The notes below the pieces were generated by a model. That model saw nothing but the letters and a program-made list of their open reading frames with translations, did no database searches and had not been told where the DNA came from. This document shows, piece after piece, positions 1 through 19,126 of a stretch of 19,257 bases of DNA (the stretch's first letter is position 1; each line of letters begins with the position of its first letter). Position numbers and translations under genes: made by a program. The stretch comes from Fusobacteriaceae bacterium (GTDB taxonomy: Bacteria; Fusobacteriota; Fusobacteriia; Fusobacteriales; Fusobacteriaceae). The stretch lies in the NCBI GenBank assembly GCA_030625925.1, contig DAOUPY010000002.1, forward strand, positions 1 through 19,257. Reading direction: 5' to 3'.

Positions 1-1947
1 AAGTAAAGGTACTGCTTGTCTTTGCATGTTTGATCCCATTAATGCTCTATTGGCATCATCATGCTCTAAGAAAGGAATTAATCCAGCTGATACAGATACT
101 ACCTGCTTAGGAGATACATCTAAATAATCTATCTTTTTACCATCTACCCATACAACTTCATGTCCAAATCTACATAATCCATCACCAGTGATTTCATGTG
201 TTTCTTCATCCATTACAGTATCGGCTTGGGCAATAAATAATCCCTCTTCCTCATCTGCTGCTAAATATCTGATATCCTCGAAATCAGCTATTCCATCTGT
301 TACTTTTACATATGGAGTTTCCATAAATCCATACTTATTTACTCTGGCATAAGTTGCTAAAGATCCTATAAGTCCGATGTTTGGTCCCTCTGGAGTTTCT
401 ATCGGGCAGACTCTTCCATAATGTGAATCATGTACGTCTCTAACCTCAAATCCTGCTCTTTCTCTCGAAAGACCTCCAGGTCCTAATGCAGATATTCTTC
501 TCTTATGAGTTAATTCTGCCAATGGATTAGATTGGTCCATGAATTGTGATAATTGACCTGATCCGAAGAAGTCTAAGATAAGTGCATTAAGAGGTCTAGT
601 ATTTAATAATGATTGCGGTGTAAGTGCAGATGCATCTTGTACAGTCATTTTTTCCTTTACCATCTTATTCATCTTAGCTAAGCCTGATCTGATTTGCATA
701 TGAAGTAGTTCTCCTACTCCTCTTACCCTTCTGTTAGAAAGATTATCTATATCATCTGTATGTCCGTCTCCACCATATAATCCTATTGCATATTTGATAG
801 TAGCCATTACATCTTCTTTAGTTAATACAACTATGTCTTCTGCAACTTCTAACTTTAATCTCTTGTTCATCTTGTATCTTCCAACTGAAGCAAAGTCATA
901 TCTTTGCGGGTTGAAGAACATTTGTCTAATAAGAGATCTAGCTGAATCTACAGTTACCATGTCTCCTGGTCTCAACTTTTTAAACACTTCCATTACAGCG
1001 TCATCTGAGTTTTCAGTTGTATCATCTAATAATGAATTAGCTAATACCTTATCTTCAGGTTTAACTTCCCAGTAAGTAAGAGTTTCTAATTTTTCATCTA
1101 TGATTTTTTCTACTGTCATCTCATCTATAACACTCTCTGCTTCTAAGATGATCTCTCCAGTTTCTTCATCGTAAACGTCTTCCTTTATGAAACTTCCCTC
1201 TATCTTAGTTCTAAGAACAGATAACAATTCGTCTCTGTTAGAGTACTTTTCATAGTATTCTGTAAGATCTTTTACTCTAGTTTCTAGTAGATCTTCCATT
1301 ATTTCTGCATTAGTCTCGTAGAAATCTACTGCCTTTAAGAATACAGGTGCTAATACCTTTTTCTTTCTGTCTATTTTTACATTCAAATAGTCATTTTTGT
1401 CAGTTTCAAATTCCAGCCAAGTTCCTTTGTATGGAATTATCTTACCTGTAAACATATCTTTAGCTGTTTGGATATTTACTTCCTTCGTAAAAGATACACC
1501 TGGTGATCTGTGTAGTTGTGAAACTACTACTCTTTCTGCACCGTTTATTATGAATGTAGCATATTCAGTCATTCTTGGAATCTCTCCGAAGTAAACTAAA
1601 CTTTCTTGTATTTCGTTCCCTGCTTTTTTATTTTCTAATCTAAGTCTAACTTTTAAAGAAGATGAAAAAGTTTTTCCTCTTTTTTTACACTCTAATTCGT
1701 CATTTAGTGGAGGTTCATTTTCATGTAACTCATACCCTACATAATCTAATTTAATGTCACCATTAGAAGATTCTATTGGAAATATTTCCTTAAAGGCTGC
1801 CTCTAATCCCTTGTTCTCTCTTGAAGTAGGATCTTTTTTAGCCTGTAAAAAGTCCTCATACGAGTTTAATTGGAATTCTAAGAAGTGAGGCATTGTACCT
1901 CTTTCTTTTATTCTTCCAAAACTAGTTCTTTTAATAAGCTTTGTCAT
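1..1947 (-). CDS. rpoB: RNA polymerase beta subunit, N-terminal part (partial)
   Basis: This is the beta subunit of DNA-directed RNA polymerase, the core transcription enzyme. The 649 codons seen run in frame to base 1, so the C-terminal half lies outside the window. The protein starts MTKLIKRTSFGRIKERG. The rifampicin-binding cluster is clear (GQLSQFMDQ, then THKRRISALGPGGL), followed by GRVCPIETPEGPNIGLIGS. D471, H481 and S486 correspond to E. coli D516, H526 and S531 and have the rifampicin-sensitive identities; the E. coli S509 position is Gly here. The ATG at 1947 is preceded by AAGGAG (1957-1962) at 9 nt spacing. It is the last gene of the ribosomal protein operon in view and is separated from rplL by a highly structured 206-nt spacer. 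rpoC would be expected next (inference). Confidence 0.98.
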   Translation of the reverse strand, partial: MTKLIKRTSFGRIKERGTMPHFLEFQLNSYEDFLQAKKDPTSRENKGLEAAFKEIFPIESSNGDIKLDYVGYELHENEPPLNDELECKKRGKTFSSSLKVRLRLENKKAGNEIQESLVYFGEIPRMTEYATFIINGAERVVVSQLHRSPGVSFTKEVNIQTAKDMFTGKIIPYKGTWLEFETDKNDYLNVKIDRKKKVLAPVFLKAVDFYETNAEIMEDLLETRVKDLTEYYEKYSNRDELLSVLRTKIEGSFIKEDVYDEETGEIILEAESVIDEMTVEKIIDEKLETLTYWEVKPEDKVLANSLLDDTTENSDDAVMEVFKKLRPGDMVTVDSARSLIRQMFFNPQRYDFASVGRYKMNKRLKLEVAEDIVVLTKEDVMATIKYAIGLYGGDGHTDDIDNLSNRRVRGVGELLHMQIRSGLAKMNKMVKEKMTVQDASALTPQSLLNTRPLNALILDFFGSGQLSQFMDQSNPLAELTHKRRISALGPGGLSRERAGFEVRDVHDSHYGRVCPIETPEGPNIGLIGSLATYARVNKYGFMETPYVKVTDGIADFEDIRYLAADEEEGLFIAQADTVMDEETHEITGDGLCRFGHEVVWVDGKKIDYLDVSPKQVVSVSAGLIPFLEHDDANRALMGSNMQRQAVPLL

Positions 1948-1970
1948 CAATTCACGCTCCTTATCTTTAT

Positions 1971-2081
1971 ATCATTGAAAATTAATAGTTAATACCTTGG
2001 GCCGATTTTCATCACTGCCCAATATATGAACTATTAATCTTTGATAAATTTATTTTATATTTTTTTTACTTTTTCAATGAT
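1971..2081 (-). ncRNA. Nested hairpin structure in the rpoB 5' leader (unassigned cis-RNA candidate)
   Basis: Read on the minus strand, this leader has an outer stem of 10-11 bp (2071-2081 with 1971-1981). It encloses an A/U-rich linker and an inner rod: 9-10 bp (2029-2038 with 1981-1990), then ATAT/GTAT, then TTGGGC/GCCCAA (2017-2022 with 1997-2002). The rod continues through an asymmetric AGU/G loop into GAU/AUC capped by a GAAA tetraloop. The 3' arms of the outer and inner stems are contiguous, so they could stack coaxially. The structure ends 8 nt upstream of the rpoB Shine-Dalgarno sequence. I do not recognise it as a named family. Regulation of rpoB translation or mRNA processing is inferred from position only. 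Confidence 0.6.
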
Positions 2082-2082
2082 T

Positions 2083-2118
2083 AAATAGGGCACTCTAAGC
2101 TAAAAGAGTGCCCTATTT
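2083..2118 (-). other. 14-bp perfect hairpin in the rplL-rpoB spacer (attenuator or processing site candidate)
   Basis: AAATAGGGCACTCT (2083-2096) pairs perfectly with AGAGTGCCCTATTT (2105-2118) around an 8-nt loop. Neither strand has a U run directly after the stem, so it is not a standard intrinsic terminator. In E. coli the rplL-rpoB spacer holds a partial attenuator and an RNase III site. A similar role here is inferred. Confidence 0.6.
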
Positions 2119-2153
2119 TATTCAATTAGTCAATTTTGGACTTAGAGAGTTAA

Positions 2154-2516
2154 TTACTTAACTTCTACTGTAGCTCCAGCTGCTTCTAATTTAGCTGCAA
2201 CTTCAGCTGCTTCATCTTTAGAAACTCCTTCTTTAACTTTTCCACCTTCAGTTTCTGCTAAACCTTTAGCTTCTTTAAGACCTAATCCAGTGATAGCTCT
2301 TAATTCTTTGATTACAGCTATTTTCTTAGCTCCTGCTGACATGATGATTACATCAAATTCAGTTTGCTCTTCTACTGCTGCTGCTGCTCCTGCTACTGCT
2401 ACCGGTGCTGCTGCTGTTACTCCAAAGTGATTTTCTAATGCTTCAACTACTTCTTTTAATTCTAATACAGTCATTGCTTCTAAATCAGCGATGAAAGTTT
2501 CTTGGTTAAATGCCAT
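2154..2516 (-). CDS. rplL: 50S ribosomal protein bL12 (L7/L12)
   Basis: This is the ribosomal stalk protein that recruits translational GTPases. It forms dimers that bind the C-terminal helix of L10. The 120 aa length is standard. The N-terminal dimerisation domain (about 1-33) is followed by an Ala-rich hinge (about 34-50, with [11 protein letters not shown]) and the globular C-terminal domain (about 53-120), with the factor-binding helix motif [14 protein letters not shown] and the usual end GATVEVK. The ATG at 2516 follows a TAGGAGG ribosome binding site. It lies 97 nt after rplJ in the same operon. That spacer can form a small hairpin (2543-2562). Confidence 0.99.
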
Positions 2517-2542
2517 TTTTATGTTCCTCCTAATTTTTATTT

Positions 2543-2562
2543 GGTAAGCTCAAAGCCATACC
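2543..2562 (-). other. Small hairpin between rplJ and rplL
   Basis: GGTAAGCT (2543-2550) can pair with AGCCATACC (2554-2562) with one bulged base and one G-U pair around a 3-nt loop, just upstream of the rplL ribosome binding site. A second hairpin, TGATC-GTGA-GATCA on the minus strand, lies near 2582-2597 and has a GNRA loop. Their role is unknown; they may influence the high relative expression of L12. Confidence 0.35.
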
Positions 2563-2613
2563 TTAATATTCTTAATTTATTTTGATCTCACGATCATATT
2601 TTAAAGCAGAGAA

Positions 2614-3108
2614 TTACGCCTCTTCTTTTTGATCAGCGATAGCTACGATACCGTATGCTAACTTTCTGATTGGTCCTAACATTCCATTTAATATCATAGA
2701 TAATAATGCGTCTCTTGATGGTAAAGTCGCTAATGCTTCTATTTCAGAAACCTCAACTCTTTTCCCTTCAGAGTAACCACCTTTGATGTTAAATAAATCT
2801 TTTTTACCTTTACCAAATTCGTAAACCACTTTAGCTGGTGCTACTGCATCTTCATATCCAAACGCAAATGCTGTAGTTCCCTCTAAAAGATCGTCAAATG
2901 AATCTGTTACACCTGCCTCAGTTAAAGCTATTTTGAATAATCTATTCTTAGCTACTAAGTATTCAGATCCAGATTCTCTTAATTGTTTCTTAACTTCAGT
3001 ATCATCTTTTGCATTGATACCTTGATAATCAACAAGTACGATTGTTTTAGCGTCTTTGATTTTTTGAGCTAATTCTGCTACTACTAATTTTTTCGCTTCA
3101 GTTGCCAT
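2614..3108 (-). CDS. rplJ: 50S ribosomal protein uL10
   Basis: L10 anchors the L12 dimers to the ribosome and, with L12, represses its own mRNA through the L10 leader. The protein is 164 aa from ATG 3108 (MATEAKKLVVAEL). An in-frame GTG at 3120 also exists but overlaps the Shine-Dalgarno sequence AGGAGGT (about 3119-3125), so I reject it as the start. The N-terminal rRNA-binding domain includes AKTIVLVDYQGI and YLVAKNRLFKIAL. The C-terminal helix (MLGPIRKLAYGIVAIADQ) is the L12-binding part. The gene is preceded by a clear L10 leader and followed by rplL. Confidence 0.98.
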   Translation of the reverse strand: MATEAKKLVVAELAQKIKDAKTIVLVDYQGINAKDDTEVKKQLRESGSEYLVAKNRLFKIALTEAGVTDSFDDLLEGTTAFAFGYEDAVAPAKVVYEFGKGKKDLFNIKGGYSEGKRVEVSEIEALATLPSRDALLSMILNGMLGPIRKLAYGIVAIADQKEEA

Positions 3109-3140
3109 TCTTCTAGTCACCTCCTCTTTAAATTAAAATA

Positions 3141-3173
3141 ATCTCTGCCTAAAGGTTTAGTAAAGACAGAGAT
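3141..3173 (-). terminator. Attenuator-type terminator hairpin in the rplJ leader
   Basis: On the minus strand ATCTCTGTCT (3164-3173) pairs with AGGCAGAGAT (3141-3150), about 10 bp with one wobble pair, around a 13-nt loop. It is followed by UUAUUUUAAUUU. Its 5' arm shares bases 3164-3169 with the closing stem of the L10 leader (TAAAGACAG, 3161-3169), so the two structures exclude each other. This layout suggests L10-dependent transcription attenuation. Confidence 0.6.
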
Positions 3174-3261
3174 CATTTCTGATAGGTGAGGTTATAAGCT
3201 TTGTATTCAAAACTGTATAAACCTCGGTAGGATTTACGGTTTTCACCACCTACTGTCTTTA
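3161..3261 (-). ncRNA. Ribosomal protein L10 leader RNA
   Basis: This cis-regulatory leader binds L10(L12)4 and controls rplJ-rplL. The visible parts are a closing stem of 9 bp (3253-3261 with 3161-3169), a second stem TAGGTG/CACCTA, and a terminal arm GAGGTTTATA/TATAACCTC. The conserved segment CCGTAAATCCTACCGAGG lies between them on the minus strand. Order, spacing and sequence match the known L10 leader family. It sits between the rplA stop codon and rplJ. Confidence 0.92.
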
Positions 3262-3267
3262 GTTCAA

Positions 3268-3296
3268 TTTATAGTTTAAAAAAAGTTAAACTTTAA
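3268..3296 (-). promoter_or_regulatory. Possible weak internal promoter before the L10 leader
   Basis: On the minus strand TTAAAG (3291-3296) and TATAAA (3268-3273) are separated by 17 nt and lie just upstream of the L10 leader. The -10 is good but the -35 is poor and the region is simply A/T-rich. An AT-only inverted repeat (AGTTTAA/TTAAACT) overlaps it. Confidence 0.3.
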
Positions 3297-3300
3297 TTAA

Positions 3301-4011
3301 TTAAGCTTCTAAATATTTAGAAACTAGGATAGGATCAATTTTGATTCCAGGTCCCATAGTTAATGATAAAGCTACAGTTCTAAGGTATTGACCTTTAGCT
3401 GCTGATGGCTTTAATCTTTCGATTTCTGCCATGAATGCTTTGAAGTTATCTTCAATTTGCTCATCTGTGAAATCTACTTTTCCAATTCCTACATGAATAG
3501 ATCCTAATTTGTCTACTCTGAATGCAAGTTTTCCTCTTTTGAATTCAGATACTGCTTGCTCTACGTTAGTAGTTACAGTTCCTGATTTAGGATTAGGCAT
3601 TAAACCTTTAGTTCCTAAAGTTCTACCTAATTTTCCTAACTTAGGCATCATGTCTGGTGTAGCGATTACTACATCAAAATCAAACCAACCTTTTTGGATT
3701 TGCTCGATATATTCTTCTGCTCCTGCATAGTCTGCTCCTGCATCTAATGCTTTTTGTATGTTTTCACCTTGAGTGATTACTAATACTTTAGTTGTCTTAC
3801 CAGAACCATGAGGTAATACTACAGTTCCTCTTACTTGTTGGTCAGCATGTCTAGGATCTACTCCTAATCTTAATGCAACTTCAACAGTTTCTACGAAATT
3901 TGCAGTTTTAGTTTTTGCAACTAATTCTAATGCATCTTTAACTTCATATAATTTACCAGTCTCTACTAATTTAGCAGCTTCTACGTATTTTTTAGCTTTT
4001 TTGTTTGCCAT
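3301..4011 (-). CDS. rplA: 50S ribosomal protein uL1
   Basis: L1 forms the mobile L1 stalk at the ribosomal E site and typically represses the rplK-rplA mRNA. The length is 236 aa, usual for bacterial L1. It contains the family signature around [10 protein letters not shown] and the segment [19 protein letters not shown]. The ATG at 4011 ([16 protein letters not shown]) follows TAAGGAGG. It is preceded by rplK with a 99-nt spacer holding a GTGG/CCAC hairpin and followed by the L10 leader. Confidence 0.99.
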
Positions 4012-16466: not shown

Positions 16467-17267
16467 ATGAACTATGTAGATTATTTTTCTACACTTTTTA
16501 TCACTTATGGAATTAAACTTCTCTATGCTGTATTAATATGGGTTATTGGAAAGTTTATCATCAGTAAATTAATGCTATTGGTAGACAAGAAAATGGAACT
16601 TGCTCGTACTGAAATTACGTTAAAGAAATTTTTACATTCTATAGTTAACACACTCTTTTATACATTTTTATTTATTATCATCATATCTACACTGGGGATT
16701 CAAACAGCATCCTTTATAGCAGTACTAGGTGCGGCTTCTTTAGCTATTGGATTTGCACTTCAAGGTAGTTTAGCTAACTTTGCCGGCGGGGTATTAATTA
16801 TTCTCTTCAAACCATATAAAATCGGTGACTATATTGAAGCCTCTGGAGTTGCTGGAACGGTTATTGAAATTCAGATTTTTGCTACCCTTTTAAATACTGT
16901 GGATAACAAAAGAGTTGTTATTCCAAATGGAAAATTATCCAATGATACCCTTGTAAATTACTCTAAAAACCCAGTTAGGAGGGTAGATATTGTATTTGGG
17001 GTAGGTTACAACGATGACATCGAAAAAGCTAAATCAGTTCTTGTTGAAATTGCAGATTCTCAAGAAAAAATATTAAAAAACCAAGAAGCTTTTGTTGAAA
17101 TAGTCGAATATGGAAGTTCATCTGTTAACTTAGTATATCGGGTTTGGTGTAATACTGCTGACTATTGGGATGTTTATTTTTGTTCTATGAAGATGGCAAA
17201 AACTGAATTTGATAAAGCTAATATCTCTATTCCATATCCACAAATGGATGTCCATGTAGAAAAATAA
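16467..17267 (+). CDS. mscS: Small-conductance mechanosensitive channel, MscS family
   Basis: MscS channels open under membrane tension to release osmolytes during hypo-osmotic shock. The 266 aa match the compact E. coli MscS type. There are three membrane segments: about 10-35, 56-77 and the pore helix 80-113, which is Gly/Ala-rich (IAVLGAASLAIGFALQGSLA, then NFAGGVLIILF). The beta domain follows with KPYKIGDYIEASGVAGTVIEI and RVVIPNGKLSND. The C-terminal alpha/beta domain ends FDKANISIPYPQMDVHVEK, the usual MscS ending. The ATG at 16467 follows TTAGGAGG. It stands alone with its own downstream terminator. Confidence 0.97.
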   Translation: MNYVDYFSTLFITYGIKLLYAVLIWVIGKFIISKLMLLVDKKMELARTEITLKKFLHSIVNTLFYTFLFIIIISTLGIQTASFIAVLGAASLAIGFALQGSLANFAGGVLIILFKPYKIGDYIEASGVAGTVIEIQIFATLLNTVDNKRVVIPNGKLSNDTLVNYSKNPVRRVDIVFGVGYNDDIEKAKSVLVEIADSQEKILKNQEAFVEIVEYGSSSVNLVYRVWCNTADYWDVYFCSMKMAKTEFDKANISIPYPQMDVHVEK

Positions 17268-17284
17268 AAAATAAGAAAAAATAG

Positions 17285-17314
17285 AAATCAGGGAATTTTT
17301 CCCTGATTTTTATT
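17285..17314 (+). terminator. Intrinsic terminator after mscS
   Basis: AAATCAGGGAA (17285-17295) pairs with TTCCCTGATTT (17299-17309) around three T residues, followed by a short T-rich tail. The tail coincides with the -35 region of the next gene's promoter. Confidence 0.85.
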
Positions 17315-17333
17315 CTCCTATCTATGTTATAAT
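17303..17333 (+). promoter_or_regulatory. Extended -10 promoter of the DUF4015-type gene
   Basis: TATAAT (17328-17333) is preceded by TGT, giving an extended -10. The -35 is poor; CTGATT (17303-17308) lies within the 3' arm of the mscS terminator at 19 nt spacing. Transcription would begin about 30 nt before the ATG. Confidence 0.6.
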
Positions 17334-18915: not shown

Positions 18916-19054
18916 GATTACCAAACCTAGTAATTGACCGACTAGAGAAACATATTATTTAGTAGTTATTTCAAAGCGAAATTTACTTATGAGTCACTCT
19001 TTAATTTGTTATGAATAAGTAATAGTCACCTTTTTATTTTTGATAGTATACATA

Positions 19055-19091
19055 AAAAAAGATCTGTCAATTCTATCGACAGATCTTTTTT
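19055..19091 (-). terminator. Terminator of the rRNA/tRNA-Ala operon
   Basis: AAAAAAGATCTGTC (19055-19068) pairs with GACAGATCTTTTTT (19078-19091) around 9 nt. Read on the minus strand it ends in a T run 36 nt downstream of tRNA-Ala. The stem is symmetrical, so it can also act on the plus strand. Confidence 0.85.
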
Positions 19092-19126
19092 ATATAAATC
19101 AGAATAATACCTGATTAAGTTTTATT

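Follow-up and report, generated by a model that had tools for sequence, protein, structure and literature searches.

RNA polymerase genes often follow ribosomal protein genes, and how the expression of the polymerase is set apart from that of ribosomal proteins is known in few models. In Escherichia coli, Barry et al. are said to have described, in 1980, an attenuator and an RNase III processing site between rplL and rpoB, and Steward and Linn reportedly raised, in 1992, a possible autogenous control at that attenuator. Lacto-rpoB RNA (RF01709) sits in the rpoB 5′ leader. In predicted folds, the E. coli rplL–rpoB spacer forms two structures, a terminator hairpin and a long, irregular stem, and this spacer is among the RNase III substrates named in a review (PMC2777011). 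Lacto-rpoB is likewise a conserved structured RNA named for rpoB, found in Lactobacillales only according to the source table (PMC2864571) and listed among 5′UTR elements in PMC7724050. A candidate leader ahead of cyanobacterial rpoBC (cluster 245) was computed from its conservation; its authors liken it to the E. coli attenuator, the experiment column of its entry reads "-", and elements of this kind were taken no further in that paper (PMC1242208). In Fusobacterium nucleatum, there is preliminary evidence of a small RNA that targets intra-operonic terminators, in a fine-mapping paper whose main text names neither rpoB nor rplL (PMC11005410). The main text of a survey of ribosomal leaders covering Fusobacteria does not mention rpoB (PMC7247131), and our search of open papers, by titles and the first part of abstracts, returned no report of a fusobacterial rpoB leader.

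The DNA analyzed here (the window) is the whole stretch of 19,257 nucleotides from a Psychrilyobacter-like member of Fusobacteriaceae (assembly GCA_030625925.1, contig DAOUPY010000002.1). The L10 protein of the window is 96%–97% identical to records from Fusobacteriaceae bacterium UBA2433 and Psychrilyobacter sp. The rplL and rpoB genes follow one another on the minus strand, separated by a spacer of 206 nt (Table 1), and a promoter scan of 1900–3400 listed no minus-strand site. Analysis of this spacer and its relatives shows a predicted RNA helix of ~25 pairs that carries compensatory change; it follows a terminator-like hairpin and ends 21–33 nt short of rpoB.

Table 1. Features of the rplL–rpoB region, in window coordinates
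Feature	Positions	Strand	Basis
rpoB (beta subunit), 5′ part; ATG at 1945–1947	1–1947	-	Protein match, frame read
rpoB Shine-Dalgarno, AAGGAG	1957–1962	-	Sequence
Conserved hairpin (~32 pairs in Psychrilyobacter)	1970–2046	-	Folds, covariance-model match
Main helix, 5′ arm	2017–2041	-	Inverted repeat I1, helix pairs
Main helix, 3′ arm	1978–2002	-	Inverted repeat I1, helix pairs
Tip GAU-GAAA-AUC (GNRA loop), differs between relatives	2004–2013	-	Sequence, 7 Psychrilyobacter spacers
Outer repeat, 5′ strand; overlaps the box after the terminator	2071–2081	-	Inverted-repeat search
Outer repeat, 3′ strand; alternative partner at ~2036–2044	1971–1981	-	Folds, inverted-repeat search
Terminator-like (attenuator) hairpin 3′ of rplL, UAGGGCACUC...GAGUGCCCUA, short U tract	2086–2115	-	Folds, inverted repeats
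rplL (ribosomal protein L7/L12)	2154–2516	-	ORF list

Compared with E. coli, the gene order and the place of the element are the same: rplL is followed by a terminator (here a terminator-like hairpin), and a long stem separates this from rpoB. It should be noted that this likeness is one of layout and predicted fold. The dimensions differ. The E. coli spacer is 319 nt long, and its predicted stem, with 37 pairs and several internal loops, ends 97 nt before the ATG rather than at the 21–33 nt found in Fusobacteriaceae.

Lacto-rpoB is the nearest named kind. The fusobacterial hairpin also lies in the rpoB 5′ leader, and the Lacto-rpoB model, with 58 positions, is near it in span. Membership was nevertheless rejected because the gathering cut-off was reached in none of the 98 Fusobacteriota genomes, despite a positive control (Lactococcus lactis) that scored above it. 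No weak match listed for these genomes was at rpoB, and Lacto-rpoB was not among the matches in 1900–2200 of the window at E values up to 10. The likeness to cyanobacterial cluster 245 is in position, ahead of rpoBC. The L10 leader (RF00557) is a cis RNA of the same gene cluster, detected at 63 bits in 3125–3280 (minus strand) upstream of rplJ; it is a different model, which the rpoB hairpin does not match. A search of Rfam, as proposed in the sequence-only reading, showed no known family reaching its cut-off at the rpoB leader: across the whole window, Rfam 15 at gathering score gave the L10 leader, two tRNAs, and nothing else, with no match at 1940–2153, and the 17 relatives' loci searched (of 92) gave no match above cut-off. 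Weaker overlaps were discarded. The weak matches in 1900–2200 (E 0.09–10) all fall short of their cut-offs; those on the hairpin (e.g., mir-350, E 2.1), like the equally insufficient mir-1992 on locus L078 and MIR9563 on L124, come from eukaryotic families. A MicX match on L072 (E 2.4e-4), likewise under its own cut-off, is away from the hairpin and on the other strand from rpoB; it was taken as chance.

The minus-strand RNA of the spacer folds as two hairpins, the terminator-like one and the long one, the latter reaching across 1971–2081 when the outer pairing is included. The sequence-only reading had described three inverted repeats, one inside another, ending 8 nt before the ribosome binding site. 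All three are present, and the gap is as stated. The outer repeat is a perfect 11-nt pair, whereas the "middle" and "inner" repeats both fall within a single 25-nt pair of arms (84%), so that the set is better described as a single long hairpin to which this genus adds an outer pairing. The 3-bp tip capped by GAAA does read as claimed on the minus strand, although the tetraloop is outside the conserved element. The same reading held that chance in A/T-rich DNA could hardly give such a set. Raw measures within the window do not single out the hairpin: at least 32 pairs per 100-nt window occur at six other places, and the hairpin is absent from the 13 lowest fold energies listed for 100-nt windows. 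However, the fold of 1946–2085 (minus strand) has an energy of −30.0 kcal/mol (z −4.49), equaled by none of 200 composition-matched shuffles, and it is because of this test, together with conservation and covariation, that we place the hairpin above chance. Outside the rplL–rpoB spacer, two A/T-rich stretches of the minus strand (17264–17330 and 19034–19107) form long hairpins that fold nearly as well. A DNA search of the genome with its own element returned the opposite strand of the terminator and, at another place, a single weak match in A/T-rich DNA, and the idea of a repeat family was dropped on that basis.

For comparison, we read spacers from 90 genomes and from two named records (genomes G001, G089, G091, and G092 were left out); rplL-like frames precede rpoB in these 92 loci, and an rpoB protein query (1300–1947) had a match in 94 of the 98 Fusobacteriota genomes. 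Fusobacteriaceae (f1 below) account for 59 loci, which reduce to 49 distinct sequences. A seed alignment (A1) of 29 of these, from genera g2–g7, was made by sequence only, and a covariance model was built from it. Although none of the 29 sequences comes from Psychrilyobacter, the model found the window hairpin at 1945–2054 (minus strand) with an E value of 6.9e-6, a score raised by the inclusion of the Shine-Dalgarno region in the model (the AAGG of that region and the GTGA that follows are invariant in 29 of 29 rows). At E values up to 1, the model matched in 52 of the 98 genomes: 52 of the 61 from Fusobacteriaceae and none of the 37 outside. Among the matches listed, every one below E 0.004 was the rpoB site or its opposite strand, and six sit elsewhere (E 0.004 to 1). 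When only the loci were searched, all 49 distinct f1 spacers matched on the sense strand, three of them weakly (L073, L082, and L020, E 0.11–0.34), and the f2 locus L124 reached 30 bits (E 7e-4) with filters off.

Folding of single sequences, limited to the last 125 nt of each spacer, gave a hairpin of at least 20 pairs with z of about −2 or lower in 51 of the 59 f1 loci (those falling short are L083, L084, L085, L086, L087, L093, L097, and L098) and in 0 of 30 f4 loci. The single f2 locus has 25 pairs (z −4.94) and the single f3 locus 22 pairs (z −5.04), in stretches that include the terminator; more generally, where spacers are short (g4, g8, f2, f3, and parts of f4), the folded stretch takes in all or part of that hairpin. 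Within f4, the loci of genus g21 (L099, L102–L109, L111–L113, and L115) have computed rplL–rpoB spacers of 324–748 nt, and their last 125 nt contain no hairpin with z below −2. Absence of the stems from related genomes was named beforehand as grounds for abandoning the idea; the main hairpin is kept throughout Fusobacteriaceae, though not in the 30 f4 loci.

The 49 distinct f1 spacers keep a median of 22 of the 25 helix pairs, and 43 of them keep at least 20, a count that includes L082 even though it is misaligned in the model alignment (0 of 25 pairs). The loop varies from 5 to 37 nt, and the distance from helix end to rpoB start codon has the range given above. Within A1, the majority letter accounts for 87%–88% in the helix arms versus 56%–58% in the flanks and loop. 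Elsewhere the letters of the helix are very different (g1, g8, g10, and g11, and in part g9 and g14), yet the helix remains; in g8 and in the one locus each of f2 and f3, the long hairpin found at this place shares little of its sequence with the others. Sequestration of the Shine-Dalgarno was rejected as a conserved feature, given that predicted ensembles differ among relatives.

Covariation was evaluated with our own R-scape-like simulation (not R-scape), in which substitutions are re-placed at random on a tree of rplL plus the 60 nt at the start of rpoB; p values for the 25 pairs are uncorrected. In A1, 91.5% of the cells of the 25-pair helix are standard pairs, compared with 36%–50% when the partners are slid. 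The summed G is 118 for the 29 rows of A1, against a null of 43 ± 15 with a maximum of 113 (a small margin) and slid controls of 13–69. It is 582 for the 49 rows of the model alignment (null 179 ± 32, maximum 310; slid controls 196–249), an alignment that was fitted to the structure, whereas the 29 rows of A1 were aligned independently of it. The twenty rows outside model building gave 375, versus 147 ± 22 with a maximum of 215. Six of the 25 pairs have p ≤ 0.01 (uncorrected) in the 49 rows, and one does in the 29 rows. The null is somewhat liberal, since 11 of 12 slid controls exceed its mean and three (A1 at +1; A3 at +2 and +3) exceed its maximum, and comparison with the slid values is therefore safer. 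A simpler shuffle control on A1 was mixed: the paired cells and the covariation score beat all 500 shuffles, and the numbers of covarying pairs and of pair types did not. Overall, the compensatory change that related spacers had been expected to reveal is present, above both the null and the slid controls.

The strand on which the element acts can be judged from the pairs themselves. G-U combinations outnumber A-C by 87 to 9 in A1 (23 to 7 with each genus counted once); the model alignment gives 131 to 17. In 45 of 49 spacers the predicted fold of the sense strand is better than that of the antisense, with genus g7 reversed on average. Such a G-U excess and strand bias would not be expected of an element that acts only as DNA and point to RNA of the rpoB transcript. 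Taken with position, conservation, and covariation, the asymmetry supports the view that the rpoB mRNA carries the hairpin as a real, conserved RNA element in cis, as had been proposed from the letters of this genome. An inverted repeat acting in DNA, either as an operator or as a mobile palindrome and without RNA function, is thus very improbable. Inverted repeats may covary as binding half-sites, so covariation is compatible with it, but G-U pairs would not then be far above A-C, nor the sense strand favored, and the six listed matches elsewhere in 98 genomes do not make a repeat family. Pairing by chance in A/T-rich DNA could be entertained given the other long irregular hairpins of the window, which rival this one by pair count and energy; against the shuffles, the conservation, and covariation that exceeds the tree null and the slid controls, we consider it hardly credible.

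The terminator-like hairpin is the second part of the arrangement. A hairpin followed by T's occurs 3′ of rplL in 57 of 57 f1 loci, 26 of 30 f4 loci, and 86 of 90 loci across the phylum, under a lax rule that has no shuffle control; L082 and L131 are among the few such matches that differ from the conserved stem. With a stricter consensus scan for terminators, the hairpin of the window is not listed, and nothing is found on the minus strand in 1900–3400. The U tract is short in Psychrilyobacter (UUUAAUCA). The stem GRCACTC...GAGTGYC was found in 70 of 98 genomes and is single-copy in 56 of the 70; among the matches listed, the single-copy ones are at the rplL–rpoB locus. In f1 the stem is mostly GGCACTC/GAGTGCC and in f4 mostly GACACTC/GAGTGTC, a compensatory difference. 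Intrinsic terminators usually drift. Here the letters of the stem are constant over much of the phylum while the loop varies. A recurrent terminator-like stem of another type (AAGCTCG...CGGGCTT, by eye) also lies 3′ of rplL in many loci of Bacilli (L036–L071), and letter conservation at this place may therefore be general. After the terminator, a loose box, A-N-T-[CA]-A-[TC]-[TC] (ANTCATT type), is present in 46 of 57 f1 loci (at 2076–2082 in the window), and 19 of 26 f4 loci have CCACTAT at that position.

What such an arrangement does has several possible answers. The one we favor, to which we would give about an even chance by analogy with E. coli, is that the helix is an RNase III-type processing site that works together with an attenuator or partial terminator. 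Transcripts that read through the terminator after rplL would fold the long helix, RNase III would cut it, and the cut would free the rpoB message from the rplL part and give it a 5′ end of its own. The terminator would thereby set the amount of polymerase mRNA, and the cut would set its separate stability and translation. A helix of ~25 pairs is long enough for RNase III. The gene for this enzyme is present in 97 of 98 Fusobacteriota genomes, which does not discriminate because it is nearly universal, including in the genomes of the 30 f4 loci that lack the hairpin. An RNase III-type site fits the position and shape at least as well as the control by beta/beta′ suggested in the sequence-only reading.

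Closest to that suggestion is an autoregulatory leader whose helix would be bound by RNA polymerase, either as beta/beta′ or as holoenzyme, or by some other protein, with less read-through or less translation of rpoB as the result. We regard this as rather unlikely overall, although RNA polymerase could regulate its own synthesis through the hairpin. The element is placed just ahead of the Shine-Dalgarno region, a conserved motif linked to rpoB is known in Lactobacillales (RF01709), and the E. coli work of Steward and Linn mentioned above points the same way. The letters of the arms are also strongly conserved among genera g2–g7, more than a plain double-stranded substrate strictly needs, and thus leave room for a specific binding protein. 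However, the Shine-Dalgarno is not within the helix, no recognition motif was identified, and the letters vary widely in the divergent genera listed above and in f2 and f3 while the helix stays. A passive role, in which the helix shields the end of the rpoB message or blocks upstream sequence from pairing with the ribosome site, strikes us as improbable also. It would account for a Shine-Dalgarno outside the helix and for a sense-strand fold that is stable in most relatives, but in predicted ensembles the Shine-Dalgarno is variably paired (mean unpaired 0.03–0.79), so that insulation is not evident, and insulation alone would presumably not require ~25 pairs.

The presence throughout Fusobacteriaceae of a covarying rpoB element that occupies an E. 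coli-like place, belongs to the same gene as Lacto-rpoB, and is unmatched in Rfam suggests an RNA device at this point that lineages either retain or invent anew. It also opens separate control of RNA polymerase to testing in a phylum whose RNA biology is little developed.

The outer repeat and the GNRA cap are, as judged from the spacers compared, features at the level of the genus. The 11-nt outer complement is perfect in 7 of 7 distinct Psychrilyobacter spacers and, being invariant there, has no support from covariation. In the other f1 loci the complement runs 8–9 nt (five g5 loci) or at most 7 nt (the rest), and we therefore rejected the outer repeat as a conserved third stem; the f2 locus has a run of 9 nt and the f3 locus one of 8 nt, both overlapping the main hairpin. 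In predicted folds of the Psychrilyobacter RNA, the 3′ strand of the outer repeat has a second, nearer 5′ partner (~2036–2044). One 3′ strand with two competing 5′ partners could be a strand-exchange switch. A more elaborate arrangement can be built on this, namely a two-stage element controlling the RNA polymerase genes of this phylum, in which the letter-conserved terminator is combined with a helix bound by RNA polymerase or a dedicated protein, tuning polymerase synthesis to demand, with the swap of the 3′ strand between 2036–2044 and 2071–2081 as the switch in Psychrilyobacter; we think this speculative and quite unlikely. Inspected by eye, the same seven distinct spacers show no change in the lower helix and differ at the tip; five of them have a GNRA cap.
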